The notes under the pieces are model-generated. The model saw only the letters and a program-made list of their open reading frames with translations, made no database searches and was not told the DNA's origin. From Affinundibacterium baiyunense (GTDB lineage Bacteria > Pseudomonadota > Gammaproteobacteria > Burkholderiales > Burkholderiaceae_D), in NCBI RefSeq assembly GCF_018139645.1, contig NZ_JAGSPM010000003.1, forward strand, positions 124,001 to 188,000: DNA of 64,000 nucleotides. The letters are read 5' to 3'. Made by a program: the position numbers and the translations under genes. This document shows, piece after piece, positions 389-44,065 of this stretch (positions are counted from its first letter, which is position 1; the number at the start of each line of letters is the position of its first letter).

Positions 389-804
389 GAGATATCTTCC
401 TTGTCATTAATTAACCGGGCGACCTCAACCTCACAAATTGTGATCAATAACGATCAGCACAAACATGTTGACAATCGCAAGTCCGATAACAGCAAATTAC
501 ATGCCAGTTAATAAATTAACTTTGAAAATATCAAATTTAAATAGCGGAACGTAGCATTGATCTATAGGAGAATACGAATTACGCGGCAAGTGATTCTCGA
601 TCAGCTATTCCAACTATTCAGCGTGTTGCCAATGAATAAAGGCTCATCAATTTGACGTGTTAATGATTCGCTTACACGCTAATGCATACCGATACAGGCT
701 AAAATAAAAAGGCACAGACAGAGTTTCCTCTGTCTGTGCCTTTAAACCTGAACACCCGAGTTTAGTTAAAGTCCCTACTTGAAGACCTTATGACTACGGC
801 TAAC
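389..804. other. Intergenic region between decarboxylase and fbp
   Basis: This gap of about 415 bases holds the promoter side of the decarboxylase gene and, at 711-740, the terminator of fbp. An imperfect inverted repeat (GATC-rich, about 441-456) lies about 55 bases upstream of the decarboxylase start and could be an operator, but I cannot assign it. No further coding region is supported. Confidence 0.5.
711..740 (-). terminator. Rho-independent terminator of fbp
   Basis: A perfect 13-bp stem with a TTTC loop starts with GGCACAGACAGAG and ends with its complement. On the minus strand the stem is followed by a T-rich run (the plus strand has AAAATAAAAA just left of 711). It lies about 65 bases past the fbp stop codon, so it most likely ends the fbp transcript. 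Confidence 0.85.
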
Positions 805-1809
805 TCATCCTTCTAAATGATAACGTGTAATCAAATCCACTTCATTTTTTGAGCCTAAGAACACTGGCACACGTTGATGCAATGCGCTTGGTTGAATATC
901 TAACATACGTTGCTTACCATCGGTTGATGCGCCGCCTGCTTGTTCGACGATCATCGACATTGGATTGGCTTCATACATCAAACGCAGTTTACCAGCCTTA
1001 TCCGGTTCACGCTTATCAGCTGGATACATAAAAATGCCACCGCGATGCAAGATACGATGCACGTCTGCCACCATCGAAGCGATCCAGCGCATATTGTAAT
1101 TTTTATTCAGTGGGCCAGTTTTACCTGCCAGCATTTCGTCCACATAACGTGTGACTGGCGGATACCAGTGACGCACGTTGGACATATTGATTGCAAATTC
1201 TTGCGTATCCACCGGAATTTGAATATTACGTTCAGTCAGTACCCAAGCACCCATTTCACGATCTAAGGTAAAGCAATTGACGCCATTACCAGTCGTGAAA
1301 ATCAACATCGTTTGTGGGCCATAAATTGCGTAACCTGCGGCAACTTGTTGAGACCCTTTTTGCAAGAAATCTTGTTCTGTTGGCGCGCCCATACCCTCTG
1401 GCGCTTTTAAAACCGAGAAGATAGTACCAATCGACACATTCACATCGATATTGCTAGAACCATCAAGTGGATCGAACAAGAGCATGTATTCGCCTTGTGG
1501 ATAGCGGTTCGGAATTGGGTGGATGGTTTCCATTTCTTCCGACGCCATCGCCGCCAAATGACCGCCCCACTCGTTCGCTTCTAACAAAATTTCATTGGAT
1601 AAAATATCGAGTTTCTTTTGCACTTCGCCTTGTACATTCTCTGAATGCGCTGTACCCAAGACTTCGCCCAATGCACCTTTACCAACCGCATGACTAATAG
1701 TTTTGCAAGCACGTGCAACAACCTCGATTAACAGGCGCAATTCTGCGGGGATATTATTATTGAGCCTTTGCTCTTCGACCAAAAAACGGGTCAGACTAAT
1801 GCGTTTCAT
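805..1809 (-). CDS. fbp: Fructose-1,6-bisphosphatase class I
   Basis: 334 residues, the usual length for class I FBPases. The enzyme hydrolyses fructose-1,6-bisphosphate to fructose-6-phosphate and phosphate, the committed step of gluconeogenesis, in the cytoplasm. The metal-binding signature DPLDGSSN is at residues 113-120, with the upstream acidic metal ligands in ASEEME (89-94). The C-terminal part carries the substrate-binding segment GGIFMYPAD and the conserved [16 protein letters not shown] start [10 protein letters not shown]. The gene lies 48 bases downstream of pepN on the same strand and could be read through from it. It is followed by a strong terminator at 711-740. No sign of damage. 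Confidence 0.97.
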
Positions 1810-1857
1810 ATTGTTCCTTCTTTAAAATAAATCTGGTGATTGTTCTGTTGGCGATCC

Positions 1858-4527: not shown

Positions 4528-4786
4528 GTCCTGCTCTGGTTTTCGCATAAATTTCACCCAAATGAATAAAAACAACTGTCGAAAGTGGTGTTATTCGGCA
4601 GAAAAAATTGGAAGCGCATATTTTACCAAGCACAGACACTGGAAGGCTGCAAATCTCAACAATTGCAGTGAGATAATCGTCACAAGGTAATCAAAGCAAG
4701 CTGAGATGGGGGGGAAATCAAGAAATTAGATAAAAATCCACCACAAGCAGAAAAATATTGTTACCAAACTCGGATCGTTCACGTTT

Positions 4787-4819
4787 ATTCCTTATTCATT
4801 CCTTACTCATTCCTTATTC
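4787..4819. repeat. Three tandem copies of an 11-bp unit
   Basis: ATTCCTTATTC, ATTCCTTACTC and ATTCCTTATTC follow each other without spacer in the divergent region between pepN and the lipoprotein gene. The period is close to one helical turn. It could be a regulator array or simple slippage; nothing else identifies it. Confidence 0.6.
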
Positions 4820-5013
4820 GATACTAATGGAGTTCGAAGTGAGATTTTTTAAAGTGGTATGCAAACCGTTTCAAGCACATCGAGAATTTCGACGTTGATC
4901 TATGACAGCGACTTTCGTGACTTTGTGGATCATGTTAGAGTCACAACAATCGATGCAATTCACTTGGTTCTATGTAGTTCTAGTATCATCGAGCAATACC
5001 GGAGGCAAACATC

Positions 5014-5724
5014 ATGAAAAAATTTACAGCTAGCTTACTCATATTCAGTGCTTTTTTACTTACAGGATGCGCGAGCACTTTCACCAGCAATATCAAGACG
5101 GTTAATCAACTACCGGAGGTATTACCGCAAAAATCCTACACCTTTGTTGAACATGCCGAACAAGCTAAAGAACCAGAATATTTACATGCGACCGAAGACC
5201 TTAAAGCACGTTTGCAAGAATTAGGTTTTAGCGAGGCTGCAGCTGAAAACGCAGCGCTAAAAGTTGGCTTACAACTGATCTCGATTCCCGGCAATGTTCA
5301 CGTCTCTTCACTATACGGGCCAGTCAGTTACATCGTTACCCCATCTGGTCTGGTGATTCCTATGGGAGGCTTTAATTCCTTCCCTATGTATTCTGGCTTT
5401 TTGCGCTACCCCTACTACCCTATGCGAGTACGCTCCGTGTTCTATCCACGTTATATCCGACCAATTTATTCACCTTGGGCATTTGGTCGTTTAAATGATC
5501 CATTTTATGGAGCTCAGTTAGAGGCTCGCCAATACTTTGATCATGGCATTGAAATCAGTATTAATGATGCAAAAACAGGAAAATTATTGTATTCAGTCAC
5601 CGCAAAAACAACTCAGGCTGATGAGAATATTGATCCTTATATCGCCTTACTAGTAGAAAGCGCTTTGCGTGAATTTCCAAACAAGACCGGTGAAAGCAAA
5701 GTAGAAATCGAGTTAGAAAAATAA
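5014..5724 (+). CDS. DUF4136-like outer-membrane lipoprotein
   Basis: 236 residues. The first 20 are a lipoprotein signal with lipobox LTGC, so the mature protein starts at Cys19 and is lipidated. The next residues are not Asp, which favours outer-membrane sorting. The body resembles DUF4136 proteins: an N-terminal segment of the type KSYTFVEHAEQ, a central Pro/Tyr/Gly-rich stretch (about 95-165, many YP, FY and RY pairs), and a C-terminal segment GIEISINDAKTGKLLYSVTAK typical of the family. Function is unknown. Ribosome site ACCGGAGG lies upstream of the ATG. It is monocistronic, ending in a terminator at 5761. The family call is from memory of pattern and is moderate. Confidence 0.75.
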   Translation: MKKFTASLLIFSAFLLTGCASTFTSNIKTVNQLPEVLPQKSYTFVEHAEQAKEPEYLHATEDLKARLQELGFSEAAAENAALKVGLQLISIPGNVHVSSLYGPVSYIVTPSGLVIPMGGFNSFPMYSGFLRYPYYPMRVRSVFYPRYIRPIYSPWAFGRLNDPFYGAQLEARQYFDHGIEISINDAKTGKLLYSVTAKTTQADENIDPYIALLVESALREFPNKTGESKVEIELEK

Positions 5725-5760
5725 GCTTGTTTCATAAAAATCTATTAGCACCATCAAAAA

Positions 5761-5796
5761 ATGCCCCGATACAACAAAGCATCGGGGCATTTTTAT
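5761..5796 (+). terminator. Bidirectional terminator between lipoprotein and DUF1631 genes
   Basis: ATGCCCCGAT and its exact complement ATCGGGGCAT flank a 10-base loop. T-rich sequence follows on the plus strand and an A-run precedes it, so it can serve the plus-strand lipoprotein gene and also the minus-strand DUF1631 gene that ends at 5869. Confidence 0.85.
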
Positions 5797-5868
5797 TGGG
5801 GGTATTTTTATAGGCGGTATTTTTTGCCTAACTTGCTGGTCCACAAAAGCAAAAAGTCAGCTTATTTT

Positions 5869-8106
5869 TTACACTGCTAAATCTCGCAAGGCATGGCTGA
5901 GAGCACGATCTACCAAAGAATTGGCCAAAATAGTGCTGACTGTTCCGGCTCGATATTTGGCTTCCAAATCCGTGTTTGTAATAGAAAATGCCTGATCTCC
6001 TTGGCGATTTGCAAAAATAAAGCTACCGCGTTTCGGGCTAATCCACGCTAACTTATAGCGGGTCACTTGTTCTGCATCTTCGCTAAAAGCCAGCCACATT
6101 CCTCGCTCTAAAGCAGCGACCTCTTTACTTGCCTCGTCTTCTTCTTGGACATTTTTGTCATGCACAAATCGCTCTAATCGACGGTTACTAGCACGCTGTG
6201 CGATATTGACGGCGATTTCCAATTGACGACGAGGCGACAATTCCAACGGAGCTCGGGCCATCGCCGCATGACGTTCAGCTAGCTTGGAGAAAAATAAAAC
6301 ACGGTCTGGTTCATCCCACCGAATCGCATTCAACCACGCATTGAGTAAAGTCAGCATTGCAGGTAACTTTGCAATCAACTCTTTACGCTCTTCTGGGCTA
6401 TTCTTGGGTTTAAGACTCCAGATCAAATCATCCATCGTCTTTAAGGCATTTTCCAACGCATGCGGTTTTTCTTCTTTAACGCTATGCGCAATAGTCAAAA
6501 TGCGTATCCACTGCTCTTCTAAGAACACTTCTAAGAAACCCGCTACCTCGCCAGTTTCGACCCGGATTGCCACATCATGTTCGGCAAATTCCCTTGCGAT
6601 TCGCATCTTTTCTGCACTTAATGCGGTTTGTACGGGTTGGCTAATCGCCATCTGCGCTTTCGATTCTTCTTCCTTCAAATACGATTCTAAATCTGAGACG
6701 ACATCGGAAAACAAATCGATATGCTCATCAAACTCGGATTGCACGCGCTCTATTACATCGCCAATCACGCCTAGTAATGGGTCTGGATTGCTAGACTCTT
6801 GATCTAACAAAATACCAGAGCTACCGAGCATATCGAGTAAGGTGCGCGCTGGATGTGATTCTCTAAAAAAGAAATCACGATCAAATAAAACGACTCGCAC
6901 AATCGGAATTTGTAATTGCGCAATCATGTTTTTCATATCGCTGCCCAAGCTTGGATCAGCAAAAATATAATCAAACATTCGAGCAAGTAATTCAATTGTG
7001 TTCCGCTCGAGCAAACTGAGTTTTTGTGCTGACGGCGAATGCAACACTTTGTGCAAACGCGATCTTAACTGCGTCGTATTACTCTCAGTTTCTGCATAGC
7101 GGATTTGCATCTCACGCAAATCTTCAAAAAACTGTTGGTCGATACTCGCTTTGTCAGCATGATCTTCTTCCGCATCATGATCTAGTTGATTGGTCAAGGT
7201 GTCGCTAACCATCGCTAGGCTACTCAAGCCGTGATCAGGATCGGTGTACGGTAACTCAATTTGTCCGGAAAATACGCGCTTCAATTTATCTTGAAGATAC
7301 GGATCCATATTGAACGATTTTTGCACAGGCAAATAAACTGAATTCCCGGTTGAAGCATCCGCCAAATCGTCACCATCTGGACGAATACCACGCGCCATTA
7401 AGGCTTGGTTGATTTCATCTAATATAGGATGCAATTGCAAAAACACCGCTGGCTGCAATAATCGCAAAATTAATAAATGCGAAGCGGGATTGGGATCTAA
7501 TTCCATCCACGCCTGATGCACCGCTTTTACAAAGATTTCAGGCCGAAAAGGATTTTGCGAAACATCAATTGGCATGCGGTTTAATATGCGTCCTATCAAA
7601 GTGTTAAGCATCACTAAAGGTTCCGCATTCAACACTTCTAGCGCATGACTCGCATTGCGTAGCAAAATCTTGCCTTCCATTTCCTCATAGGTTTGCGCCG
7701 TGTTGTCTAAATACTGCTGATCTTTCTTGACGCGTTTTCTTGTATTAAAAACACTTACCTCGCGACTTAAAGCAGCATTAATCTGGCTCGCGACCAGACG
7801 ATAAAAGTTTGTACTATTTCGCTTTATGAGTTGATGGGCATCTAGACTAATACGCGCCTCTTCTGGTCGCACTGCTTGATCAGAAAGTTTAAATAATTGT
7901 TCTGCCAAACGATTGGACAGTGCCTCTAGCTGAGAGGAGACCAAATTCGTAGCCAACGGCACCATACTTTGTAAAATCAATAAACGCGAAGCACTCGAAG
8001 ACTCCAAGACTTTATTTTCACGCAAGTGCCCAGTCGCGGGCTTGCCTACGCTGGTAGCATCTTTCGCTGCATTTGCAACAGTTGGAGAAATTGGCGTGGA
8101 ATCCAT
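5869..8106 (-). CDS. DUF1631 family protein
   Basis: 745 residues, cytoplasmic (no signal or membrane segment). It is largely alpha-helical and acidic, with a C-terminal block reading YKLAWISPKRGSFIFANRQG, followed by a segment ending LVDRALSHAL. That tail is the hallmark of DUF1631, a betaproteobacterial and gammaproteobacterial family of unknown function that is sometimes misnamed thymidine phosphorylase. The tail resembles a small PilZ-like beta fold, so a nucleotide-second-messenger link is possible but only a guess. Acidic and glutamine-rich segments occupy the middle. A small membrane-protein gene lies just upstream on the same strand. Confidence 0.8.
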   Translation of the reverse strand: MDSTPISPTVANAAKDATSVGKPATGHLRENKVLESSSASRLLILQSMVPLATNLVSSQLEALSNRLAEQLFKLSDQAVRPEEARISLDAHQLIKRNSTNFYRLVASQINAALSREVSVFNTRKRVKKDQQYLDNTAQTYEEMEGKILLRNASHALEVLNAEPLVMLNTLIGRILNRMPIDVSQNPFRPEIFVKAVHQAWMELDPNPASHLLILRLLQPAVFLQLHPILDEINQALMARGIRPDGDDLADASTGNSVYLPVQKSFNMDPYLQDKLKRVFSGQIELPYTDPDHGLSSLAMVSDTLTNQLDHDAEEDHADKASIDQQFFEDLREMQIRYAETESNTTQLRSRLHKVLHSPSAQKLSLLERNTIELLARMFDYIFADPSLGSDMKNMIAQLQIPIVRVVLFDRDFFFRESHPARTLLDMLGSSGILLDQESSNPDPLLGVIGDVIERVQSEFDEHIDLFSDVVSDLESYLKEEESKAQMAISQPVQTALSAEKMRIAREFAEHDVAIRVETGEVAGFLEVFLEEQWIRILTIAHSVKEEKPHALENALKTMDDLIWSLKPKNSPEERKELIAKLPAMLTLLNAWLNAIRWDEPDRVLFFSKLAERHAAMARAPLELSPRRQLEIAVNIAQRASNRRLERFVHDKNVQEEDEASKEVAALERGMWLAFSEDAEQVTRYKLAWISPKRGSFIFANRQGDQAFSITNTDLEAKYRAGTVSTILANSLVDRALSHALRDLAV

Positions 8107-15035: not shown

Positions 15036-16334
15036 TTAACTAGGCAAAACAACGGCACGCTGTGGAAATTGTACACAGAATTTACTGCCGACATTGACAG
15101 TCGATTCAATCAACAATTGTGCATCATGACGAATTAATACATGCTTGACGATTGCTAAGCCCAAGCCTGTTCCTTGGGTTTCACGCGAGCGACTTTTATC
15201 AACCCGATAAAATCGTTCGGTTAAGCGTGATATGTGCTCTTGACTGATACCAATGCCATTGTCCTGAACCACACACTTTGGACCTTGTGGTGTGTTCTTC
15301 CAAATGACCTTTATTTCGCCGTGTTCTGGCGTATAGCGCACCGCATTGGTTACCAAATTACTGATCGCACTACGAATTTCGTCGCTACTACCGTGAATAT
15401 CTGGTCCATCAAAATCTAAACTAATTTGATGTTTACCCGCTGATAAGGCCTGCGCCTCTTGGCAAATATGGCGCAACATCAAATGCATATCAATGTGTTC
15501 TGCGCGTACTTTAAATTCAGTTGATTCTAAGCGACTCAAGGTCAGCATATCCTCAACCAATCGTTGCATACGCTCGCCCTGCTCTATCATCAACTTCACG
15601 TGCGAAGAACGAATCGATACTTCCATATCCGGCTGCATCGCAGCGATCTCTAAAAAGCCATTGATTACGGTTAATGGAGTACGTAACTCATGTGATGCAT
15701 TGGCGATGAAATCACGGCGCATCATATCGATACGTTCTGATTCGGTAATATCATGGGTAACCAGAATTTGACGTCGATTTTCAAACGGAATCACGTGCAC
15801 GATTAATTTGCGATCACGTAAAGATAAGGTCAATGGCGTATCGTAACGACCAAGAATAATGTAATCAATAAACTCCGGTGCGCGTACGAGGTTGGTGACG
15901 CGCATACCCTTGTCACGCGACAAATCCAAACCCAAATGATGTTCTGCAATTGGATTACACCACTCCAGAAACATCACGTCGTCCATGATCACCAAACCAT
16001 CCGGCAATAAGGTCATCGCTTGTCGAAAGCGAGCTAACCATTCTGCCAATTCAGATTGATTTTTTTCGTCGCCACGACGCAATTTGTAGAGCCGCGAAAA
16101 AATTTCAGTCCATGCACCCCAACCATCAGGAAGTCGCGCGCTATTGGGATTATCCAACCAATCAGACAAGTTCAATAAATATTGCAATTGCACCACAATC
16201 AACACGATCATGCTAATCAGTGCAAGTGCTAAACCTGTCACCACACCAAAAAAGTACGCAGCTACCGCCGACATTGCCAGAATGATCGTCATACGGACGG
16301 CCGCTGAAATCCAAAAAACGAGATGTGGGCGCAT
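15036..16334 (-). CDS. phoR: Phosphate regulon sensor kinase PhoR
   Basis: Two adjacent membrane segments fill the first 60 residues with almost no periplasmic loop, the PhoR layout. A PAS domain (about 105-200) follows, then the H-box ASHELRTPLTVINGFLE, whose His is residue 220 counting from the upstream TTG. The ATPase domain carries QDNGIGI and TQGTGLGLAIVKH. PhoR phosphorylates PhoB when phosphate is scarce and is held off by PstSCAB-PhoU. I place the start at ATG 16334 (MRPHLVFW); a TTG five codons upstream is possible, and neither has a good ribosome site. It is the last gene of the pst-pho cluster, 60 bases after phoB. Confidence 0.95.
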   Translation of the reverse strand: MRPHLVFWISAAVRMTIILAMSAVAAYFFGVVTGLALALISMIVLIVVQLQYLLNLSDWLDNPNSARLPDGWGAWTEIFSRLYKLRRGDEKNQSELAEWLARFRQAMTLLPDGLVIMDDVMFLEWCNPIAEHHLGLDLSRDKGMRVTNLVRAPEFIDYIILGRYDTPLTLSLRDRKLIVHVIPFENRRQILVTHDITESERIDMMRRDFIANASHELRTPLTVINGFLEIAAMQPDMEVSIRSSHVKLMIEQGERMQRLVEDMLTLSRLESTEFKVRAEHIDMHLMLRHICQEAQALSAGKHQISLDFDGPDIHGSSDEIRSAISNLVTNAVRYTPEHGEIKVIWKNTPQGPKCVVQDNGIGISQEHISRLTERFYRVDKSRSRETQGTGLGLAIVKHVLIRHDAQLLIESTVNVGSKFCVQFPQRAVVLPS

Positions 16335-16409
16335 TATTGAGTGATTCAAATTAAAGACTGAGAAAGAATATCTCCGTCATGATAAGACAAAACTATCGAT
16401 TAAAATTTT

Positions 16410-17099
16410 TTACTTTTCCGACAGCATATAACCAACGCTTCGAATTGTTTTAATCAATCCTTCCGCATTCTTTAAAACTTTGCGCAAACGTAGCACATGC
16501 ACGTCAACGGTACGTTCTTCGATCACAACATGATCGCCCCATACTTTGTCTAATAGCTGGCTGCGAGAAAACACACGTTCTGGGTGAGCCATGAAGAACT
16601 TTAATAATTTATATTCTGCGTGACCAATCTCGATTTTCTTGTCGTCTATCTTGACTGTGCAACTAACAGGATCTAAATGCACATTGGCAATCACTAAACT
16701 CGTTTGCGCATGCTCTGGACTCTTACGACGCAACATGGCCTTGATGCGTGCAGTTAATTCACGCGGAGAAAATGGTTTGGTGATGTAATCATCTGCGCCA
16801 TGATCGAGTCCAGAAATCTTGTCCTCTTCCATGCTTTTTGCAGTCAACATAATGACCGGCATTTCATTGAAGTTGCGATCGGAACGGATTCTGGATAACA
16901 ATCGCAATCCGCTTTGGTCTGGCAGCATCCAATCTAACAAAATTAATTGTGGCGTGCGATGTTGCAAGAATTCCCAAGCCTCTGCAGTATTGCCAACGGC
17001 AACTGTGTTCCAACCTGCCGCACGTAAAGTAAAACTAATCAACTCACTAATCGCAGGTTCATCTTCTACGATCAAAATCGTGGTTTTATCAACTGACAT
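16410..17099 (-). CDS. phoB: Phosphate regulon response regulator PhoB
   Basis: 229 residues. The receiver domain has ED at 12-13, Asp56 in LILLDWMLP, Thr in IMLTAKS and Lys in ITKPFSP. The OmpR-type winged helix (about 130-228) includes the recognition segment VIEERTVDVHVLRLRKVLK, very close to E. coli PhoB. It binds direct-repeat Pho boxes; three strong candidates lie in this window upstream of pstS, ppk1 and the olsB-like gene. The translation start has no Shine-Dalgarno sequence and is preceded by a tandem repeat containing two TATAAT hexamers. Confidence 0.96.
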   Translation of the reverse strand: MSVDKTTILIVEDEPAISELISFTLRAAGWNTVAVGNTAEAWEFLQHRTPQLILLDWMLPDQSGLRLLSRIRSDRNFNEMPVIMLTAKSMEEDKISGLDHGADDYITKPFSPRELTARIKAMLRRKSPEHAQTSLVIANVHLDPVSCTVKIDDKKIEIGHAEYKLLKFFMAHPERVFSRSQLLDKVWGDHVVIEERTVDVHVLRLRKVLKNAEGLIKTIRSVGYMLSEK

Positions 17100-17100
17100 A

Positions 17101-17130
17101 GGATTATATTTTTTAGGATTATATTTTTAA
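17101..17130 (-). promoter_or_regulatory. Tandem 15-bp repeat with two -10 hexamers before phoB
   Basis: GGATTATATTTTTTA is followed directly by a near-identical copy. Read on the minus strand each copy contains TATAATCC, a consensus -10. The proximal hexamer ends only a few bases before the phoB ATG, so a transcript from it would be leaderless, and one from the distal copy would have about a 14-base leader without a ribosome site. Confidence 0.5.
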
Positions 17131-17192
17131 TTGTTTACACAGAATAAGTAATAGCGGTGCGATCGATTTCATTCACACCGCTACTTCCCAAC

Positions 17193-17912
17193 TTATACTT
17201 GTGGTGTCGCTTTATCTTGTTTGCTAGCGACGTAATCGGAATGGCGAATATCGCGACCTTCAACGATATAAATCGTATGCTCAGCAATATTCTTCGCATG
17301 ATCGCCAATTCGTTCTATCGCTTTGGCTACCCACAAAGCGTCGAGAGCGAAAGAAATCGTGCTCGGGTCTTCCATCATAAACGTAATCAAATTACGCATG
17401 ATCGAACGAAAGTCACTGTCGATAATTTCATCAAATGCGATTAACTGCACTGCTTTTGCATCATCATGGCGTGCAAATGCGTCCAACGATTGATGCAACA
17501 TCTGACCAACGCTATTGGCCAAAACACGTACCGTTTCATATCCGCTAAACATCGCGTTGCTACGATTTTTATGCATCATTTCTTGTGCGATACGCGCGAT
17601 CTTGGTTGATTCATCACCGATACGCTCTAAGTCGGTAATTACTTTACCAGTCGCCATCACGGTACGTAAATCATTCGCAGCTGGTTGACGTTTAACGATC
17701 AAGTGACTACACATATCATCAAGCATGACTTCTAGGCGATTCACTTCTTCGTCTGACTTCACCACCGCTGCTGCATGTTCACTGTTACCGGTGCGATAGC
17801 AAGACATCGCATCCTGAAAATGGTTTTCTACTAAACCGCCCATTAACAACACTTGGGAACGGATTGCTTCTAAATCGTGATTGTACTGACTCGATGAATG
17901 TTCGCCTGTCAT
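17193..17912 (-). CDS. phoU: Phosphate signalling protein PhoU
   Basis: 239 residues made of two three-helix PhoU repeats, each carrying the metal-binding pattern: DLERIGDESTKIAR in the first half and AIERIGDHAKNIAEH in the second. PhoU links the Pst transporter to PhoR and dampens phosphate uptake. It lies between pstB (56 bases upstream) and phoB (93 bases downstream) in the standard order. Start ATG with a ribosome site GGAGC. Intact. Confidence 0.96.
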   Translation of the reverse strand: MTGEHSSSQYNHDLEAIRSQVLLMGGLVENHFQDAMSCYRTGNSEHAAAVVKSDEEVNRLEVMLDDMCSHLIVKRQPAANDLRTVMATGKVITDLERIGDESTKIARIAQEMMHKNRSNAMFSGYETVRVLANSVGQMLHQSLDAFARHDDAKAVQLIAFDEIIDSDFRSIMRNLITFMMEDPSTISFALDALWVAKAIERIGDHAKNIAEHTIYIVEGRDIRHSDYVASKQDKATPQV

Positions 17913-17968
17913 GTTAGCTCCTGAATTCTGATTGATCGTCTACGGTGTTTGCAATGTACTCGCCAAAA

Positions 17969-18754
17969 CTAGCCAAAACGGCCAGTAATATAATCTTGGG
18001 TCTCTTTGCGTACGGGATTCATAAAGATATTATCGGTCTCACCAAACTCGACTAATTCGCCCAAATACATATAGGCGGTGTAATCGGAACAACGCGCAGC
18101 TTGTTGCATATTGTGCGTCACGATCGCGATCGTATAATCTTCTTTCAACTCGTTAATCAACTCTTCAATTTTTACTGTAGAAATTGGGTCTAGCGCCGAA
18201 GTCGGTTCATCTAACAGCAAGACCTCTGGCTTCACCGCAACGCCGCGCGCAATACACAAACGCTGCTGTTGACCACCAGACAAGCTTAATCCACTACTGC
18301 TCAATTTATCCTTAACCTCGTTCCACAAGGCCGCTTTCTTCAATGACCATTCAACACGTTCATCCATCTCACCTTTAGAGAGGTTTTCGTATAAGCGAAC
18401 ACCAAAGGCAATATTGTCATACACCGACATCGGGAACGGAGTTGGCTTTTGAAATACCATACCCACTTTTGCACGCAACATATTGATATCTTGGCCAGGC
18501 AACAAAATATTTTGGCCATTGTAAATAATTTCACCAACAGCTTTTTGACCTGGATACAAGTCATACATGCGGTTAAAAGTGCGCAACAAAGTCGATTTAC
18601 CGCAACCAGAAGGACCGATGAAAGCAGTCACTTTCTTGTCATAGACCTTCAAATTCACGTCATGCAAACTGCGGTTATTCCCATAATAGAAATTCAAATT
18701 CTTCGTTTCGATGCAAGCTTTTTGCTCTACAACTGGTTTTGTATTTGGAATCAT
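17969..18754 (-). CDS. pstB: Phosphate ABC transporter ATP-binding protein PstB
   Basis: 261 residues. Walker [11 protein letters not shown]-loop in [12 protein letters not shown], signature [14 protein letters not shown], Walker [13 protein letters not shown] and H-loop VTHNM are all present. The [10 protein letters not shown] segment and the C-terminal [11 protein letters not shown] are specific to PstB. It powers high-affinity phosphate import with PstC and PstA at the inner membrane. It starts 16 bases after pstA. Confidence 0.97.
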
Positions 18755-18770
18755 GATGTTCAGCTCTAAA

Positions 18771-19631
18771 TTATTTATGCACTTTTTGTGCGAATACAGT
18801 ACGTGACAGAATATTCAATGCCAATACGCTAAAGGTCACTAACAATGCACCGGTCCAAGCCAGACCACGCCAATTGTCATAAGGACTCATCGCGAATTGA
18901 TAAATAACGACTGGCAAATTCGCCATCGGTTTATTCATGTCGGTATTAATAAATTGGTTGTTCAATGCGGTGAAAAGCAAAGGCGCCGTCTCACCGGAGA
19001 TGCGTGCAACCGCCAACAAGACACCGGTCAAAATACCTGCCTTAACCGCTTTCACACGAATAAATAATGCTACTTTCCAACGCGGAGCACCTAACGCAAA
19101 TGCAGCTTCTCGCAAGCTTGTTGGAACCAACGCCAACATATTATCGGTAGTGCGCACAACAACAGGAATCGCGATCAGAGAAATTGCTAAAGTACCCGCC
19201 CAACCAGAGAAGTGTTTAATGTGTGCCACGTAAATCGCGTACACAAATAGGCCAATCACCACTGATGGTGCAGACAACATAATGTCTGTCACAAAGCGCG
19301 TCAAATCGCTAAACCAATTTTTCTCGCCATACTCTGCCAAGTAGATCCCTGCCAATATGCCGATTGGTGTACTGATCAAAGTCGCAAAACCAACCATCAT
19401 CAAGCTACCTAATAATGCATTGGCTAAACCACCGCCTTCTTCACCTGGAGCTGGCGTCGCAGTGGTAATGACTTCCCAGCTTAATGAGCCCAAACCTTTG
19501 CTGACCAAAGTCAACAAAATCCACATTAAGAAAAACACGCCTAAAGCCATCGCCGCGGTAGAAAAGAAAATACCAATCTTATGCTTGCGCAAACGCGACT
19601 TATATACAGAATTCACAGCAGCTTGGGTCAT
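18771..19631 (-). CDS. pstA: Phosphate ABC transporter permease PstA
   Basis: 286 residues with six membrane helices and the permease coupling loop [10 protein letters not shown]-type motif (here [17 protein letters not shown]). An N-terminal basic stretch, SRLRKHKIG, precedes TM1. The start codon overlaps the pstC stop (ATGA), so the two are translationally coupled. It forms the phosphate channel with PstC. Confidence 0.96.
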
Positions 19632-20605
19632 TTCACACCTTCTTTTCTTTTCATACCTAACAGCAGCAATTTTGCCGAAGCCAAGACCACGAACGTAATT
19701 ACAAACAAGATTAAACCAAGTAAGAATAAGGAAGCGACATGCAATTCAGATTCTGCTTCGGCAAATTCGTTCGCGAGACTAGAAGCGATACTATTTCCAC
19801 CTGCAAATAAAGACCAATGTAATTTATGCGCGTTACCGATCACAAAGGTAATTGCCATAGTCTCACCGAGTGCGCGCCCTAACCCCAACATCACACCACC
19901 AATCACACCGGCTTTAGTGTATGGCAACACAACTTTACGCACCACTTCCCAACGTGTACAACCTAAGCCGTAGGCAGATTCTTTCAATACTGGCGGCACA
20001 ATTTCAAACACGTCGCGCATTACGGATGCAATAAACGGGATAATCATGATGCCCAGAATGATGCCAGCTGTTAGTACGCCAATCCCAATCATCGAACCTG
20101 AGAATAAAACGCCAACGACAGGCAACTTACCTAAAGTGCTTGCCAAAAATGGCTGTCCATAAGTGCTGAAAAATGGGGCGAATACGAATAAACCCCACAT
20201 GCCGTAAATAATACTAGGCACACCTGCCAACAATTCAACCGCGGTACCGAGTGGACGTTTTAGCCAAACTGGGCAGATCTCTGTTAAAAATAAAGCGATA
20301 CCAAAACTAATTGGAAACGCGATCAGCAAGGCGATACCTGAAGTCACTAAGGTACCAACGATCGCAATCATGCCGCCGTATTGATCATTGATTGGATCCC
20401 ACTCAACGGTGGTGATAAAGGCAAATCCAAATTCTTTCATTGCCGGTAAAGCGCCATAAAATAGCGACACGACGATACCGACTAAAACGAGTAAGACTAT
20501 TAGCGCAAAGCTAAAAGTCAATTTATGAAACAGAAAATCCTGCAATTTCTGTTTCCGCATAGTTGAGCTATGTATCATGGTTTGTGTGGTTTGAGTACTT
20601 GTCAT
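19628..20605 (-). CDS. pstC: Phosphate ABC transporter permease PstC
   Basis: About 325 residues from ATG 20605 ([10 protein letters not shown]). The frame extends to a TTG at 20659, but AGGAAG upstream of 20605 and family length favour the inner start. Six transmembrane helices; coupling loop [22 protein letters not shown]. It overlaps pstA by four bases. The 172-base gap to pstS contains a stable hairpin, a common arrangement that lets pstS mRNA accumulate above the membrane components. Confidence 0.95.
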
Positions 20606-20690
20606 CACTTGACTATCTTCCTGTATTTCATCCCGAATCGATGCAGATGAAGAGTTCAAAGCTGGAGTAGATATTTTTACTTTTTATGTG

Positions 20691-20721
20691 CAAACATCCC
20701 AACGTGTGGTCGGGATGTTTG
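20691..20721. other. Hairpin between pstS and pstC
   Basis: CAAACATCCC pairs with GGGATGTTTG, a 10-bp stem with an 11-base loop. In the minus-strand transcript it is followed by an A-rich, not U-rich, stretch. It therefore looks like an mRNA-stabilising 3' structure for pstS more than an intrinsic terminator. Confidence 0.55.
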
Positions 20722-20777
20722 TGTCTTACTTACTTCACAATAATCAAATCAATCTAACGATTTAAAAGATTTAGAAG

Positions 20778-21821
20778 TTAATATAATGCTTTACCAGATG
20801 CATCTTTCAAGTTCGCTTTCCAGCTAGCTTGGATCAATTTCACGACATCTGCTGGCAATGGAACGTATTCCAATTCAGTCGCCATGGCGGAGCCGTTTGC
20901 AAAAGCCCAGTCGAAGAATTTCACAACTTCTTGTGTATTCGCTGCATTCGCAGGTACTTTATGTAACAAGATGAAAGTTGCACCACTGATAGGCCATGTT
21001 GCTTTGCCTGGTTGGTTCGTCAAAATCACGCCCATACCTGGTGTTTTTGCCCAATCTGCACCAGAAGCAGCTGCTTTAAAGTTAGCGTCATCTGGTTGTA
21101 CAAATTGACCATCCAAGTTTTTCACTTGTGTGTGTGTCATTTTGTTGCGTTTCACGTAAGCATATTCAACGTAACCGATAGAACCTTTGATACGTTGCAC
21201 GTTTGCAGCAACACCTTCGTTACCTTTACCACCCAAGCCAACTGGCCATTTCACTGCAGTACCAGAGCTCACAGTAGATTTGAATTCTGGGCTTACCTTA
21301 GACAAATAATCTGTCCAGATAAATGTTGTACCAGAACCGTCAGAACGATGTACTACAGTGATATCTTCCGCTGGCAATTTCACACCTGGATTGATTGCAG
21401 CGATTTCAGCCGCATTCCACTTAGTAACTGTACCCATGTAAATCTTTGCCAATACTTCACCAGTCATTTTCAATTGGCCTGGTGCAATCCCTTCCAAGTT
21501 CACGACAGGTACAACACCACCGATCACTGCTGGGAATTGCATCATTCCATCAGAGTTCAAATCTTCGATTTTCAATGGCATATCAGTTGCACCAAAATCA
21601 ACTGTTTTTGCTTTAATTTGTTTAATACCACCACCAGAACCGATGGATTGGTAATTGATAGTATTTCCCGTTGCTTTTTTGTAAGCATCAGCCCATTTTG
21701 CGTAGATTGGATAGGGGAAAGTCGCGCCTGCACCAGTGACTTCAGCAGCATGCACAGACGAAAAAGCCAACGCAGCACCAGCTGCCATGACTAAAGACTT
21801 AACAATACGATTAAATTGCAT
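20778..21821 (-). CDS. pstS: Phosphate ABC transporter substrate-binding protein PstS
   Basis: 347 residues from ATG 21821, placed behind GAGGT. A longer frame to 21896 would bury the signal peptide. Sec signal MQFNRIVKSLVMAAGAALAFSSVHA is cut before AEVTGAGATF, the conserved mature start. The phosphate-binding segments GAGATFPYP, SIGSGGG, GATDMPL and HRSDGSGTTF are intact. It binds phosphate in the periplasm and delivers it to PstCA. It is the first gene of pstSCAB-phoU-phoB-phoR, controlled by the Pho box at 21955-21972. Confidence 0.97.
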   Translation of the reverse strand: MQFNRIVKSLVMAAGAALAFSSVHAAEVTGAGATFPYPIYAKWADAYKKATGNTINYQSIGSGGGIKQIKAKTVDFGATDMPLKIEDLNSDGMMQFPAVIGGVVPVVNLEGIAPGQLKMTGEVLAKIYMGTVTKWNAAEIAAINPGVKLPAEDITVVHRSDGSGTTFIWTDYLSKVSPEFKSTVSSGTAVKWPVGLGGKGNEGVAANVQRIKGSIGYVEYAYVKRNKMTHTQVKNLDGQFVQPDDANFKAAASGADWAKTPGMGVILTNQPGKATWPISGATFILLHKVPANAANTQEVVKFFDWAFANGSAMATELEYVPLPADVVKLIQASWKANLKDASGKALY

Positions 21822-21938
21822 ATTGACCTCGTGTAATTGGGAAAACGATTCTTCAAGCTTAATAAAAATCTTTATAAAACCTGTATGTGACTTCATGAAT
21901 TAAGCAATTTGCTTGTGCACTGAAATAACATGGATCGA

Positions 21939-21972
21939 ACTGTACTAGCCCAATATGACAAGAATATGACAG
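21939..21972 (-). promoter_or_regulatory. Pho box and -10 of pstS
   Basis: On the minus strand CTGTCAT-ATTC-TTGTCAT (21972-21955) is a near-consensus PhoB direct repeat. Ten bases further lies TACAGT (21944-21939), the expected -10. Spacing matches known Pho promoters, in which the box replaces the -35. Confidence 0.9.
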
Positions 21973-22013
21973 ACTTTAATGATCTATGAAATATTTGAAC
22001 TGCGGAAATATTT

Positions 22014-22047
22014 CTGTCACAAACTTGTCATAATTAATAATTACAAT
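22014..22047 (+). promoter_or_regulatory. Pho box and -10 of ppk1
   Basis: CTGTCAC-AAAC-TTGTCAT (22014-22031) is followed after exactly ten bases by TACAAT (22042-22047). This predicts transcription from about 22054, which rules out a ppk1 start at the TTG at 22050. Confidence 0.9.
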
Positions 22048-22124
22048 CTTTGCAGGACTTGGCTACTTTGCTTGCCAAGCAGCGTGTTTATTTAGTTCAA
22101 AATCGTTTAAAACGAAAAATTGCA

Positions 22125-24338
22125 ATGATCAATCCGGATGTCATAAACAATGTCATTGACACGACAGAAGCAATAGAGGTTAATGCAAATTCCTCTTCTT
22201 CAACAGGCGCTAGCATGAGCCACAAAGCGACAAACGATAGCGAATCGGCATTAATGACAAGCCTAGGCTTGCCGCGATCAGCAATCTATTTAGATAGAGA
22301 ACGATCACAAATCGCATTTAACTGGCGCGTGTTGGCACAGGCGGAAGACAAAAGCATTCCTTTATTAGAGCGCTTGAAATATTTATGTATCGTTGGCAGT
22401 AATCTAGACGAGTTCTTTGAAGTACGCGTAGCTAGTTTATTGGCGCAAAATACCATCGATGGGCAACTGGCCCAACACGCCGCCTTCACTAGCATGATGG
22501 AACGTATCGATAAAGAGTGTCACGCGTTAGAGACACGTCAATACGAAGTATTAAACCAAGATATCTTGCCAGCCTTATCGCGCAAAGGCATCCATTTATT
22601 ACGTCATACCGAAAGAACCGAAGCCCAGCGCGCTTGGGTGAAATCCTACTTCGATCGTGAGGTCCGTCCCTTATTAACACCGATAGGTTTAGACCCAGCG
22701 CACCCCTTCCCCCAAGTTGTTAACAAAAGTCTCAACTTTATTGTCTCGCTGGCGGGTAAAGATGCGTTTGGACGAGGCACCGCAATCGCCATTGTCAAAG
22801 CACCGCGCGTTTTACCGCGTGTCATCAAAATTCCCGACGAGTTAACAGAAAAAGGACAAGCTTTCTGTCTGTTGTCTTCGGTCATACATGCGCATATTGG
22901 TGATTTATTTAATGATCGAGAAGTTCTCGCTTACTCGCAATTTCGCGTGACTCGTGACAGTGATTTATGGGTGGATGAAGATGAAGTAAAAAATCTACGT
23001 CAAGCTTTGCAAGGAGAATTGCAAGGTCGTCAATTTGGTATGGCGGTTCGCCTAGAAGTTGCCAAAAATTGCCCTGAATCTTTGTCACAATTTTTGCTGG
23101 AACAATTTTCTCTGAGCAAAGACCGTCTCTATGCGGTCGATGGCCCAGTCAATATGGTGCGATTATCTGAGTTAATCGACCATGTGAATCAAGCAAACCT
23201 GCGCTTCCCAGCCTTTTCAGCCAAATCGGACTCCAAGCTTGCACAAAAAAATATTTTTGATGTTTTAAACAAACAAGATATTTTATTGCATCACCCATTT
23301 CAGCCGTTCCAAACGGTAATTGATTTCATCCGAACGGCATCGCTTGATCCCAACGTCTTGGCAATCAAGCAAACTATTTATCGTACCGGCATGAATTCCG
23401 ATTTAATGGAATCGCTGATCACCGCTGCACGCATGGGCAAGGAAGTCACGGTGGTAGTCGAATTAATGGCGCGCTTTGATGAAGAGGCGAATATCAATTG
23501 GGCAGATCGCTTACAAAGAGCTGGCGCTCAAGTTGTGTATGGCGTGGTCGGTTTAAAGACGCATGCAAAACTAGCCTTAGTGATTCGCCGTGAAGAAGGC
23601 GGGGGCTTGCGTCATTATGCGCATTTAGGGACTGGCAATTACCACCCTTCCACCACCCGTTTTTACACAGATTTTGGTTTACTCACGGCTCACCCCAAAA
23701 AAGCAGCTGAAGTCAACGAAGTGTTTATTCACTTAACAGGTTTAACCAAGCCGAAAAAATTAGAACACCTGTGGCTCGCACCTTTCTTCTTACAACCCAA
23801 AATCATCAAGGCAATTCGGAATGAAGCACGTATCGCACGTGAAGGTCGTCCCGGCCGCATCATCGCAAAAATGAATGCATTGGTCGATGAATCGGTGATC
23901 CGTGCTTTATATGCTGCCTCAGCAGATGGCGTCAAAATCGACCTGATCGTTCGTGGTGCCTGTACTTTACGACCTGGTGTTCCTGGTTTGTCTGAAAACA
24001 TTACGGTGCGCTCTATCATTGGACGCTTCTTAGAACATTCACGTATCTATTATTTCCGCAATGATTTGCAGCACGATGTTTATCTGGCGAGTGCAGATTG
24101 GATGAGCCGAAATTTATTCCGTCGTATTGAAGTTGCCTTTCCAGTCTTAGAAAAGAGCCTGAAAAAACGCATTATCTCCGAAGGTTTAGACCCCTACTTA
24201 AAAGATAACCAAAATGCTTGGGTGCTTGACTCTGACGGTAGTTATGAACGCAAAAAAGTTCGTGGCAAACAGAAGCCATTTAGCGCACAACAATATTTGA
24301 TGCAGACTTTAGGTTCGCCTGAATCAGAAGATAACTAA
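22125..24338 (+). CDS. ppk: Polyphosphate kinase 1
   Basis: Up to 737 residues. It makes polyphosphate from ATP reversibly and is membrane-associated. Domain order is N (RERSQIAFNWRVLAQAEDKS, the PPK1 start), head, C1 and C2. The autophosphorylated His lies in THAKLALVIRREEG and the second essential His in RSIIGRFLEHSRIYYF. Start choice is uncertain: ATG 22125 is the first after the predicted transcription start, but ATGs at 22215 and 22254 would give the usual length near 690. The residues between them are Ser/Asn-rich and look dispensable. Its Pho box diverges from that of pstS. sixA follows after 19 bases, a likely operon. Confidence 0.95.
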   Translation: MINPDVINNVIDTTEAIEVNANSSSSTGASMSHKATNDSESALMTSLGLPRSAIYLDRERSQIAFNWRVLAQAEDKSIPLLERLKYLCIVGSNLDEFFEVRVASLLAQNTIDGQLAQHAAFTSMMERIDKECHALETRQYEVLNQDILPALSRKGIHLLRHTERTEAQRAWVKSYFDREVRPLLTPIGLDPAHPFPQVVNKSLNFIVSLAGKDAFGRGTAIAIVKAPRVLPRVIKIPDELTEKGQAFCLLSSVIHAHIGDLFNDREVLAYSQFRVTRDSDLWVDEDEVKNLRQALQGELQGRQFGMAVRLEVAKNCPESLSQFLLEQFSLSKDRLYAVDGPVNMVRLSELIDHVNQANLRFPAFSAKSDSKLAQKNIFDVLNKQDILLHHPFQPFQTVIDFIRTASLDPNVLAIKQTIYRTGMNSDLMESLITAARMGKEVTVVVELMARFDEEANINWADRLQRAGAQVVYGVVGLKTHAKLALVIRREEGGGLRHYAHLGTGNYHPSTTRFYTDFGLLTAHPKKAAEVNEVFIHLTGLTKPKKLEHLWLAPFFLQPKIIKAIRNEARIAREGRPGRIIAKMNALVDESVIRALYAASADGVKIDLIVRGACTLRPGVPGLSENITVRSIIGRFLEHSRIYYFRNDLQHDVYLASADWMSRNLFRRIEVAFPVLEKSLKKRIISEGLDPYLKDNQNAWVLDSDGSYERKKVRGKQKPFSAQQYLMQTLGSPESEDN

Positions 24339-24357
24339 TCATATTGAGGAAATGTCG

Positions 24358-24837
24358 ATGGATCTGATTCTCTGGCGCCATGCGGAAGCCGAACCCGGAA
24401 ATGAAGAACTCGCCGATGCGCTACGCCGCCTGACGCCTAAAGGTCACAAACAAGCGCAAAAAATGGCGTATTGGTTAGACAGCGTGTTGCCGGACAATTG
24501 CCGGATTCTGGTCAGCCCAGCAATTCGCGCCCGCGAAACCATGATGCCACTTGCCAAGTTGAATCGAAAATTCAAGATTGCCGCAGAGATTAATCCTGAA
24601 GCGAGTGCCGACGATTTACTCAAAGCGGCCAATTGGCCAGACTCAAGAGAAACTGTGATGCTAGTTGGGCACCAACCCAGTCTAGGTGATGTGGCAGCAC
24701 GCTTAATTACACCCAAACAAAATGAGTGTGCTGTGCGCAAAGCAAACGTCTGGTGGATTACACAAAAGGAACGCGATGGTGAAGGCTTGCGTACCTATTT
24801 AAAAGCAATTATGTCGCCTGATTTGGTCATCAAATAA
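24358..24837 (+). CDS. sixA: SixA-type histidine phosphatase
   Basis: 159 residues from ATG 24358, seven bases after GAGGA; an ATG two codons earlier is too close to that site. The RHG catalytic core LWRHAEAEPG opens the protein, the second conserved segment is SPAIRARET, and the second catalytic His lies in LVGHQPSLGDVA. E. coli SixA removes phosphate from phosphohistidine proteins. Here it sits directly behind ppk1, so a phosphate-stress role is possible by position. No regulatory element separates it from ppk1. Confidence 0.88.
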   Translation: MDLILWRHAEAEPGNEELADALRRLTPKGHKQAQKMAYWLDSVLPDNCRILVSPAIRARETMMPLAKLNRKFKIAAEINPEASADDLLKAANWPDSRETVMLVGHQPSLGDVAARLITPKQNECAVRKANVWWITQKERDGEGLRTYLKAIMSPDLVIK

Positions 24838-24987: not shown

Positions 24988-25845
24988 TTATACCGGCACG
25001 GCAATATGCTGTGGCTCAACTGCCTGCGCATATGGCACTACATCGTGCCAAGTAATCAGCCGTAATTCGCCATCCGCTTCCTCAATTAAGGCCGACAAAC
25101 TTTCTACCCAATCACCATCGTTGCAGTAAATAATACCGTCAATATCCCGGATTTCTGGTTTGTGAATGTGCCCACAGATCACGCCGTCTAAACCACGTTT
25201 GCGAGCTTCGTCGGCTAAGGCATCTTCAAACTTGGTAATATAACTCACCGCGTTCTTGACCTTCAGCTTGAGGTACTGCGATAAAGACCAATAAGGTAGT
25301 CCGGCACGCGCGCGCCATTGATTAAAGACTTGATTAATTTTCAGAATCACCGTGTACATACTATCGCCTAGATAAGCCAACCACTTTGCACAAGCAATGA
25401 CGCCATCAAATCGATCTCCATGCAAGACCAACATGCGCTTACCATTTGCGGTGGTATGAATTAATTCATCGCGCACTTGAATGCCACCGAAATCCAGTTC
25501 AATAAATTGACGAGCAGCTTCATCGTGATTTCCCGGAACGAAAATCACATTGGTTCCCTTTTTTGCTTTCTTCAGCACGGTTTGCACGATGTTGTTATGA
25601 GTTTGATCCCAATACCAACGCCGTTTCAATTGCCAACCATCGATGATGTCGCCGACCAAATACAAAGTTTCTGATTCGGTCGATTTTAAAAATTCTAGCA
25701 AGCGTTTAGCTTGGCAGCCGGGCGTGCCAAGATGCAGATCAGATATCCAGATAGTTCGAAAATGTTTGATGTCTTTCTTCGGCGTTTTAGATGGCTTTAA
25801 AAGCTTTTGCATTTTCTTATCGAGAAACTGATCTGCTGGCATCAT
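24988..25845 (-). CDS. PlcP-like metallophosphoesterase (LpxH-related)
   Basis: 285 residues, soluble. The calcineurin-type metal motifs are DLHLG, GDIIDGW, GNHDE, HGD and GHIHKPE, in order. The segment WYWDQTHNNIVQ and the end YCNDGDWVES match the subfamily usually annotated UDP-2,3-diacylglucosamine diphosphatase-like, to which Sinorhizobium PlcP belongs. PlcP is a phosphate-starvation phospholipase C that releases diacylglycerol from phospholipids. The start codon overlaps the stop of the OlsB-like gene (ATGA), so the two are coupled. The Pho box upstream of the pair supports PlcP over true LpxH. The enzyme activity is inferred. Confidence 0.82.
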   Translation of the reverse strand: MMPADQFLDKKMQKLLKPSKTPKKDIKHFRTIWISDLHLGTPGCQAKRLLEFLKSTESETLYLVGDIIDGWQLKRRWYWDQTHNNIVQTVLKKAKKGTNVIFVPGNHDEAARQFIELDFGGIQVRDELIHTTANGKRMLVLHGDRFDGVIACAKWLAYLGDSMYTVILKINQVFNQWRARAGLPYWSLSQYLKLKVKNAVSYITKFEDALADEARKRGLDGVICGHIHKPEIRDIDGIIYCNDGDWVESLSALIEEADGELRLITWHDVVPYAQAVEPQHIAVPV

Positions 25846-26609
25846 TTTGCAATATCCTCGGTCCCGTAGTGTTTAGCGTAACGAGTATCTAAATTCGCGA
25901 TCGGCAACATCACAAATAAATCCGCACTATGAAAATCCGGGTCCCAAGCAGGCTCGCCACCTATCCATGCACCAGCGCGCAAATAGCCTTTTAAAAGTGG
26001 AGGAATACGCGCCTCATAGCCCTCATCCATATTTTCAAGAGGAAATGGCAAATGTGGTGTAACACGATATTCAAGGGGAGCAAATTCTTGATCTTTGAAA
26101 TTGCGGTAGATCGCTGCAGCATTGTGTCCGCCGTCGGCCAAGCTAATGCTGGCGCAACCAATCAGGAATTCACAACGCTCACGACGCATATATGCAGCCA
26201 AACCGGCCCACAACAACATAATCACGGCACCGCTACGATAATCCGGATGTATGCATGCTCGACCAGCTTCGGCGATACTGCCACGTATGTTTTGCAAGCG
26301 AGATAAGTCGAACTCACCTTCGGAATAGTAACGTCCAATCTGACGTGCCGCATTTGGGCTCAAAATCCGATAGGTACCGACAACTTTCAAGGATTTGGTA
26401 TCACGTACAATTAAGTGATCGCAGTATTCGTCAAATTCATCTTTATCTAGACAATCATCATTTGCCAAAGCAGTCAGCCCCATTGCTTCGATAAAGACTT
26501 TGTAGCGCAGGCGCTGCACTTCTTTCACTTCTTTTTTTGTACTCGCAAGACTGAGACTTAATTTGGAAAAACTAGGATTAGCATCCCCGGGTATCGTCAA
26601 CACTCGCAT
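25842..26609 (-). CDS. OlsB-like N-acyltransferase (ornithine-lipid synthesis family)
   Basis: 255 residues from ATG 26609 behind AAAGGAG; the frame extends seven codons to a TTG that lies before that site. The fold is the GNAT-like Acetyltransf_5 family, sometimes labelled hemolysin: LRYKVFIEAMG, then a GTYRIL core strand, AEAGRACIHPDYRSGAVIMLLW (two parts: AEAGRACIHP and the pantetheine-binding turn) and LIGCASISL. OlsB transfers a 3-hydroxyacyl chain from ACP to ornithine, the first step to ornithine lipids. No OlsA-type second acyltransferase is adjacent. Coupled to the PlcP-like gene and preceded by a double Pho box, it fits membrane lipid replacement under phosphate limitation. Confidence 0.8.
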   Translation of the reverse strand: MRVLTIPGDANPSFSKLSLSLASTKKEVKEVQRLRYKVFIEAMGLTALANDDCLDKDEFDEYCDHLIVRDTKSLKVVGTYRILSPNAARQIGRYYSEGEFDLSRLQNIRGSIAEAGRACIHPDYRSGAVIMLLWAGLAAYMRRERCEFLIGCASISLADGGHNAAAIYRNFKDQEFAPLEYRVTPHLPFPLENMDEGYEARIPPLLKGYLRAGAWIGGEPAWDPDFHSADLFVMLPIANLDTRYAKHYGTEDIAK

Positions 26610-26647
26610 GCGCTGGTCTCCTTTATTCAAATCAGCATTTAGGCTGC

Positions 26648-26703
26648 AGAATAAAGAGCGAATACTTCAAGACTGTGACAGTTGCATGTCCGTTTTATGA
26701 CAA
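26648..26703 (-). promoter_or_regulatory. Double Pho box and -10 of the olsB-plcP pair
   Basis: On the minus strand four 7-mers with 4-base spacers follow in an 11-bp period: TTGTCAT (26703-26697), CGGACAT, CTGTCAC and TTGAAGT (ending 26664). The first and third match the PhoB consensus closely; the second and fourth are weaker. Ten bases on is TATTCT (26653-26648), the same spacing as at pstS and ppk1. Confidence 0.75.
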
Positions 26704-44050: not shown

Positions 44051-44065
44051 TATAATGACAGCATG
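44051..44065 (+). promoter_or_regulatory. Consensus -10 immediately upstream of mutL
   Basis: TATAAT at 44051-44056 ends six bases before the mutL ATG (44063). The -35 is weak. A transcript from here would begin at or within a base of the A of the start codon, a leaderless mRNA. No ribosome site precedes the ATG. Confidence 0.55.

Follow-up and report, generated by a model that had tools for sequence, protein, structure and literature searches.

A candidate PhoB-controlled olsB-plcP operon for membrane lipid remodelling in Affinundibacterium baiyunense and its relatives

The window, by which we mean the whole analysed stretch of 64,000 nt, belongs to a 4.27-Mb assembly of 91 contigs from the same genus as Undibacterium griseum. 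Two overlapping genes lie on its minus strand. The first, olsB (25842-26609), encodes an OlsB-like, putative ornithine N-acyltransferase of 255 aa and starts with an ATG at 26609-26607, ahead of which is AAAGGAG. The second, plcP (24988-25845), encodes a predicted PlcP-type phospholipase C of 285 aa that would act inside the cell; the ATGA at 25845-25842 is common to the olsB stop and the plcP start. Phosphate genes, identified as ORFs with tblastn matches in relatives, occupy 15036-24837; we named them by eye from the sequence and take the order to be phoR-phoB-phoU-pstB-pstA-pstC-pstS on the minus strand and ppk1-sixA on the plus strand, followed by plcP-olsB on the minus strand. In relatives having the olsB-plcP pair, ppk1 is within the fetched stretch in 11 of 20. 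No OlsA-like ORF adjoins the pair among the window ORFs. A preliminary description of this DNA had reported the ATGA overlap, the position beside the pst-pho genes and the lack of an adjacent OlsA, and the ORF coordinates agree with it on each of these points.

Upstream of olsB, the minus strand carries four half-site units of 11 bp: TTGTCATAAAA (26703-26693), CGGACATGCAA (26692-26682), CTGTCACAGTC (26681-26671), and the degenerate TTGAAGTATTC (26670-26660). The predicted PhoB box proper (26686-26703, minus strand) comprises TTGTCATAAAA and CGGACAT from units 1 and 2, and 10 nt separate the last half-site from the -10 hexamer TATTCT (26653-26648, minus strand). No element of the array is missing in the window: three better half-sites are followed by TTGAAGT, 10 nt and TATTCT. 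The spacing is the same at the reference Pho boxes of pstS (21955-21972, minus strand; TTGTCAT, 10 nt, TACAGT) and ppk1 (22014-22031, plus strand; TTGTCAT, 10 nt, TACAAT); olsB has the 11-bp direct half-sites and the -10 at 10 nt by which we define a Pho-type promoter. On its own, the fourth unit matches the consensus poorly; it is credible because its phase is conserved in relatives, many of which keep both the phase and the sequence of units 3 and 4.

To score such sites, we used a matrix trained only on the divergent Pho boxes that lie between pstS and ppk1, the window's two included (window and eight relatives, 17 distinct sites); the matrix and the first scan were seeded with what we take to be the E. 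coli-type Pho consensus. The olsB site scores 12.9, and both strands of the 64-kb window contain six matches of at least 12.8, two of which are the matrix's own training sites. The predicted olsB box exceeds chance expectation. Hence the half-sites in an 11-bp period and the -10 spaced as at pstS and ppk1, noted earlier, are confirmed at the sequence level at 26660-26703. Further Pho-box-like matches occur at 44055 (minus strand, score 13.7) and 18625 (plus strand, score 18.3), the latter overlying coding sequence of pstB, which runs on the other strand.

We then ran the same matrix upstream of olsB in relatives, calling a box significant at p ≤ 0.05 in dinucleotide shuffles; the promoters compared are related to one another and do not represent independent events. 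Of 21 olsB-plcP regions, selected so as to cover different genera, 20 had a box; so did 18 of the 20 regions tested (from 47) that have olsB but no plcP, and 10 of 20 tested plcP-alone regions of other families. We considered a -10 phased if TANNNT was found 10, 21 or 32 nt past the best box, i.e., 10 nt past a phased half-site position. This was the case for 31 of the 35 olsB promoters scoring at least 7 (16/18 and 15/17), and no TANNNT was seen at other offsets from 0 to 44 in these 35 promoters. In a second, overlapping set, 24 of 32 olsB loci returned by the search had p ≤ 0.05; outside one genus, g6, the numbers were 20/21, and all 20 loci scoring at least 7 kept the -10 phase. A cruder scan with the consensus yielded p ≤ 0.05 in 16/32 loci; among the 32 were two truncated loci with misplaced starts (L074, L089). 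In g6 (L042, L079-L087 and L090), the olsB-plcP pair is kept and the box is mostly missing: it is significant at 4 of 11 olsB loci and not significant at seven, while neither of the two loci scoring at least 7 has a phased -10. A few g6 loci keep only a sequence resembling the fourth unit together with a phased TANNNT. Thus, the pair can also occur where no clear Pho box is seen.

The best NCBIfam matches of the 255-aa protein are two OlsB equivalog models, which, judging by their names, were built on Brucella- and Rhodobacter-type enzymes. The scores, 162.2 and 157.6 bits, are below the respective cut-offs of 320 and 350, while the GlsB model yields only 21.7 bits. The protein contains an Acetyltransf_5 GNAT domain (PF13444, 123.7 bits) and shares 32.6% identity with an S. 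meliloti homologue. By these matches it is OlsB-like, with ornithine as the putative substrate. A search for a second OlsB in the genome produced only a 23.5-bit partial match. The preliminary description suggested looking for OlsA elsewhere in the genome. The OlsA profile search identified four PF01553 genes, the best of which (L004:1312-2046) scores 111.4 bits against a cut-off of 300; 193 of 195 family genomes have this candidate, whereas 147 have olsB. Being nearly universal in the family, it is not diagnostic, and hence we do not assign a dedicated OlsA. Possibly, a shared acyltransferase of the PlsC/OlsA type finishes the ornithine lipid.

The diacylglycerol (DAG) released by PlcP is not a building block of ornithine lipid, and therefore OlsB is not the sink of DAG. 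This established point, together with the sub-cut-off OlsB scores and the missing dedicated OlsA, could be explained if PlcP were the main business of the locus and OlsB merely shared its promoter: DAG would end up in a betaine lipid or a homoserine lipid, with ornithine lipid as a minor product, or OlsB would make an N-acylated amino acid that is not lyso-ornithine lipid. We regard this as rather unlikely, given that OlsB models rather than GlsB are the best matches, and that olsB has its own Pho box in nearly all tested relatives lacking plcP. We favour reading olsB-plcP as an operon that PhoB activates to remodel membrane lipids, which is probably correct as a whole; what the enzymes do, that the genes are co-transcribed and induced, and which lipids result are inferences.

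The second protein was identified by profiles and phylogeny. Two LpxH models, NF003743 and TIGR01854, match it with 47.5 bits against a cut-off of 134 and with 42.6 bits against 190.35, respectively. A separate LpxH is encoded elsewhere in the genome (279 bits), and 192 of 195 sampled family genomes likewise have one scoring above the cut-off. A maximum-likelihood tree of 38 rows separates 29 PlcP-type proteins from nine LpxH with support of 100/100. The PlcP clade includes a Sphingomonas PlcP, whose gene is followed by one for a glycosyltransferase, and S. meliloti PlcP, to which the window protein is 49.4% identical. We recognised S. meliloti plcP by its neighbours, genes for an AHL synthase and a LuxR regulator, which we take to be sinI and sinR. 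In the AlphaFold model of the phosphoesterase (pLDDT 81.1, pTM 0.73), the top eight solved folds are LpxH at 21-24% identity, and therefore the structure confirms only the superfamily. We conclude that, by sequence, the phosphoesterase is PlcP-type and not LpxH.

This agrees with the preliminary description, which called the protein PlcP and would have taken clustering with LpxH, or the lack of another LpxH in the genome, as evidence to the contrary; neither was observed. Its remark that such proteins are usually annotated as LpxH holds for S. meliloti PlcP, whose record reads UDP-2,3-diacylglucosamine diphosphatase. Such record names, the fold and the weak profile match are what an additional LpxH with a role in lipid A synthesis, with the neighbouring olsB serving general envelope work, would have in its favour, but this is very improbable given the sub-cut-off profile scores, the true LpxH here and in nearly all relatives, the tree split, and the coupling of plcP to agt, GT28 and btaA genes described below.

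We looked for genes that could use the DAG made by PlcP, searching for agt, a gene for a DAG glycosyltransferase of the Agt type, with the Sphingomonas plcP neighbour as a query (E ≤ 1e-30). In the family sample, agt was found in 61 of 195 genomes and directly follows plcP in 58 of these 61; olsB, plcP and agt stand in a row in 46/195. One agt genome only lacks plcP: in G250 (L320), agt is located directly after olsB and no plcP was found in the genome, as if it had been lost from the trio. Genes of the DUF3419 (btaA) family are present in 14/195 genomes, 12 of them Undibacterium. Among 102 genomes with plcP (G344, with a plcP fragment, was left out), 60 have agt, 14 have a btaA-family gene, and none has both, although the weight of this exclusion (0/74) is reduced by shared ancestry. 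The link between btaA and plcP is mostly that of a single lineage (12/14 genomes), and the DUF3419 gene of G292 (75 bits, no tblastn match to btaA queries) probably belongs to another subfamily. Of the 28 plcP genomes with neither gene, 16 have a GT28 gene of the MGDG-synthase/UgtP type after plcP and two have a more distant GT4 match (29-30%); in the fetched stretches of the other ten, no match to a DAG-using gene was found. Thus, with agt, GT28 or btaA genes beside or with plcP, PlcP keeps company with DAG users, as expected of a phospholipase C. In all 16 GT28 cases, the UgtP-type gene is followed by a gene for a protein of about 170 aa (L112, L113, L114, L294, L296-L298, L305, L308-L315), the L269 copy of which has no Pfam match. 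L269 (G297) combines several of these genes on one strand at 255-6582: a phoU-like ORF, btaA, a GNAT-like gene, plcP, a UgtP-type glycosyltransferase, and the 170-aa protein, so that two DAG-using enzymes surround a single plcP.

The pair itself recurs. The 195 family genomes include 103 with plcP, 147 with olsB (146 listed), and 99 with both; in 71 of the 195, all from the 103 with plcP, olsB immediately precedes plcP (<200 bp). These counts share ancestry and come from draft genomes that sample larger groups. In the sample of the order, plcP is found in 135/250 and olsB in 184/250 genomes, the two genes, by eye, being mostly apart. Of 578 relatives, 80 named loci were kept; 33 have an olsB match, in 25 of them (counted by eye) directly upstream of plcP. 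The loci with the pair include Acidovorax, Curvibacter and Limnohabitans, and Comamonadaceae loci have olsB-plcP-ppk1-sixA on one strand. The pair is thus confirmed to recur both within the family and among Comamonadaceae. Neighbourhood by chance or general linkage, with fortuitous half-sites, would suit the 47 of 146 listed family olsB genomes without plcP, the mostly separate positions of the genes in other families (judged by eye), and g6, where the pair shows little sign of a box, but it is hardly credible in view of direct adjacency in 71 family genomes, of a phased -10 in 31/35 scored promoters with none at other offsets, and of phasing in all 20 loci outside g6 that score at least 7 in the second set. 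One genome, G417, has three plcP and three agt copies with equal scores on contigs C2 and C17, either a duplication or an assembly artefact.

Neither agt nor a UgtP-type gene was found at the examined Undibacterium plcP loci, while btaA was detected in 12 of 13 sampled Undibacterium genomes, the one without a detected btaA being G390, which has plcP. In the own genome, btaA is unlinked to the window (contig C47, L268:3774-5012; PF11899, 279.4 bits) and has a predicted Pho box (TTGTCATAAGC CTGTCAC, 10 nt, TAGAGT) that ends 59 bp before the ORF start. A box with p ≤ 0.01 was found at 10/10 tested Undibacterium btaA loci, and all 12 fetched loci have two half-sites, 10 nt, and TANNNT (position relative to btaA by eye); outside the genus, the L269 box is not significant (p 0.1). 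BtaA of U. griseum is 42-45% identical to eight of nine matches in plasmid records, the ninth being at 25%, and matched no solved structure. The own-genome BtaA is more diverged, with 40% identity to U. griseum and 29% to Rhizobium leguminosarum. In S. meliloti and R. leguminosarum, btaA is followed by a gene for a SAM-dependent methyltransferase. With the S. meliloti methyltransferase as a query, we found no ortholog-level BtaB in 39 genomes of the genus (best score 53 bits) and only a 20-bit partial match in the own genome; a diverged or unrelated methyltransferase could escape this single alphaproteobacterial query. As no BtaB was found and the own BtaA is diverged, its product is uncertain.

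Taken together, these data suggest the following scheme. When phosphate is scarce, PhoB would bind the 11-bp-phased half-sites and recruit polymerase to the -10 lying 10 nt beyond the last of them, switching on olsB-plcP and btaA together. PlcP would cleave phospholipids inside the cell into DAG and the phospho-headgroup, from which phosphate would be recovered. Independently, OlsB would N-acylate ornithine, using acyl-ACP, to start the phosphorus-free ornithine lipid, which would be finished by an O-acyltransferase encoded elsewhere, perhaps the shared one mentioned above. DAG would be consumed by a separate Pho-boxed enzyme, in Undibacterium BtaA, yielding diacylglyceryl-homoserine, and in many relatives by the glycosyltransferase encoded right after plcP. 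The lipid replacement proposed in the preliminary description is upheld as far as the PlcP-type enzyme, the Pho-type promoter and the recurrent pair are concerned, but it had missed the fate of DAG, for which OlsB is not the sink.

All kinds of components are known. According to the accessible parts of the respective papers, plcP, olsB and btaAB of S. meliloti are under PhoB, and PlcP-made DAG feeds DGTS (PMC3972451); a plcP mutant of Phaeobacter loses DGTS (PMC4796936); PlcP and OlsAB are absent from a phoBR mutant of Pseudomonas putida BIRD-1 (PMC5082522); plcP-agt operons occur in SAR11, methanotrophs and Pseudomonas aeruginosa (PMC4796936, PMC9239053, PMC8528852); and olsB of Burkholderia sensu lato has predicted Pho boxes, with its conserved context given as "data not shown" (PMC7814305). 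The S. meliloti enzyme set is similar in outline (PlcP 49.4%, OlsB-like 32.6%, U. griseum BtaA 42%) and is under Pho control, as is predicted here. By contrast, the S. meliloti record has plcP apart from olsB and a methyltransferase gene after btaA, whereas here olsB and plcP overlap beside the pst-pho genes and no BtaB was found. Our proposed scheme agrees in content with that of S. meliloti (PMC3972451) but is wired differently: olsB and plcP overlap, the part that uses DAG can be exchanged, and no BtaB was recognised to go with BtaA. Like the plcP-agt operons in the accessible descriptions, 58 family genomes have plcP adjoining a DAG glycosyltransferase gene, but here olsB stands in front, and Undibacterium, in which no agt was found, has btaA elsewhere. 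In P. putida BIRD-1, both PlcP and OlsAB are Pho-dependent in one cell, as would be the case here, while olsA adjoins olsB and the locus tag of plcP is far from theirs (PMC5082522). The Burkholderia sensu lato study likewise has OlsB with predicted Pho boxes in Burkholderiales, but its accessible text names no plcP partner (PMC7814305). In the Burkholderia and Cupriavidus loci that we examined, some on short contigs, no olsB match was found near plcP. Our literature search, which covered few subscription journals, found no named olsB-plcP or olsB-plcP-agt operon, and the olsB-plcP pairing and the partner lipid look new.

If the scheme holds, a single promoter links the breakdown of phospholipids with the first step towards a replacement lipid, and an exchangeable third part (Agt, a UgtP-type enzyme or unlinked BtaA) decides which DAG lipid is made. 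The scheme would then allow a clear test of the reason for joint induction of ornithine lipid and DAG lipids; it also flags the mis-annotation of PlcP as LpxH, and it suggests that Undibacterium may produce lipids of the betaine type or related ones.

The neighbours of btaA may be relevant to the nature of these lipids. A GNAT-like gene of 350-390 aa adjoins btaA in nine of 12 Undibacterium loci and in G297 outside the genus (L273:2476-3603, with homologues in L272, L274-L278, L316, L317 and L269); its product has at most a sub-threshold match to PF13480. In the remaining three of the 12 loci, including the own genome, an MTA/SAH nucleosidase gene is beside btaA. Aminocarboxypropyl transfer by BtaA would release methylthioadenosine, and therefore such a neighbour fits, although it may be a coincidence. 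We tentatively propose, as a conceivable but doubtful model, that in Undibacterium the Pho-boxed BtaA adds homoserine to PlcP-derived DAG, that this homoserine is not trimethylated, and that in most sampled species the GNAT-like enzyme encoded beside btaA instead of BtaB alters the amine, e.g., by acylation. This would give a new class of phosphorus-free lipids alongside ornithine lipid from the olsB-plcP operon. Homologues of the GNAT-like gene were found in 12 plasmid records, eight of which were inspected, and these contexts neither prove nor disprove a lipid role. In five of the eight (Paraburkholderia, Roseateles, Paenibacillus, Shinella zoogloeoides and Rhizobium sp. BT03), the homologue clusters with KASIII-like, oxidoreductase and MBL-fold genes, and in four of these also with F390/CoF-synthetase-like genes. 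On two Deinococcus plasmids, the partner gene was considered as a possible BtaA and rejected, as it has only a weak ATP-grasp match. In the Rhizobium rhododendri plasmid record, which is unannotated, the GNAT homologue adjoins a DUF3419-like ORF.
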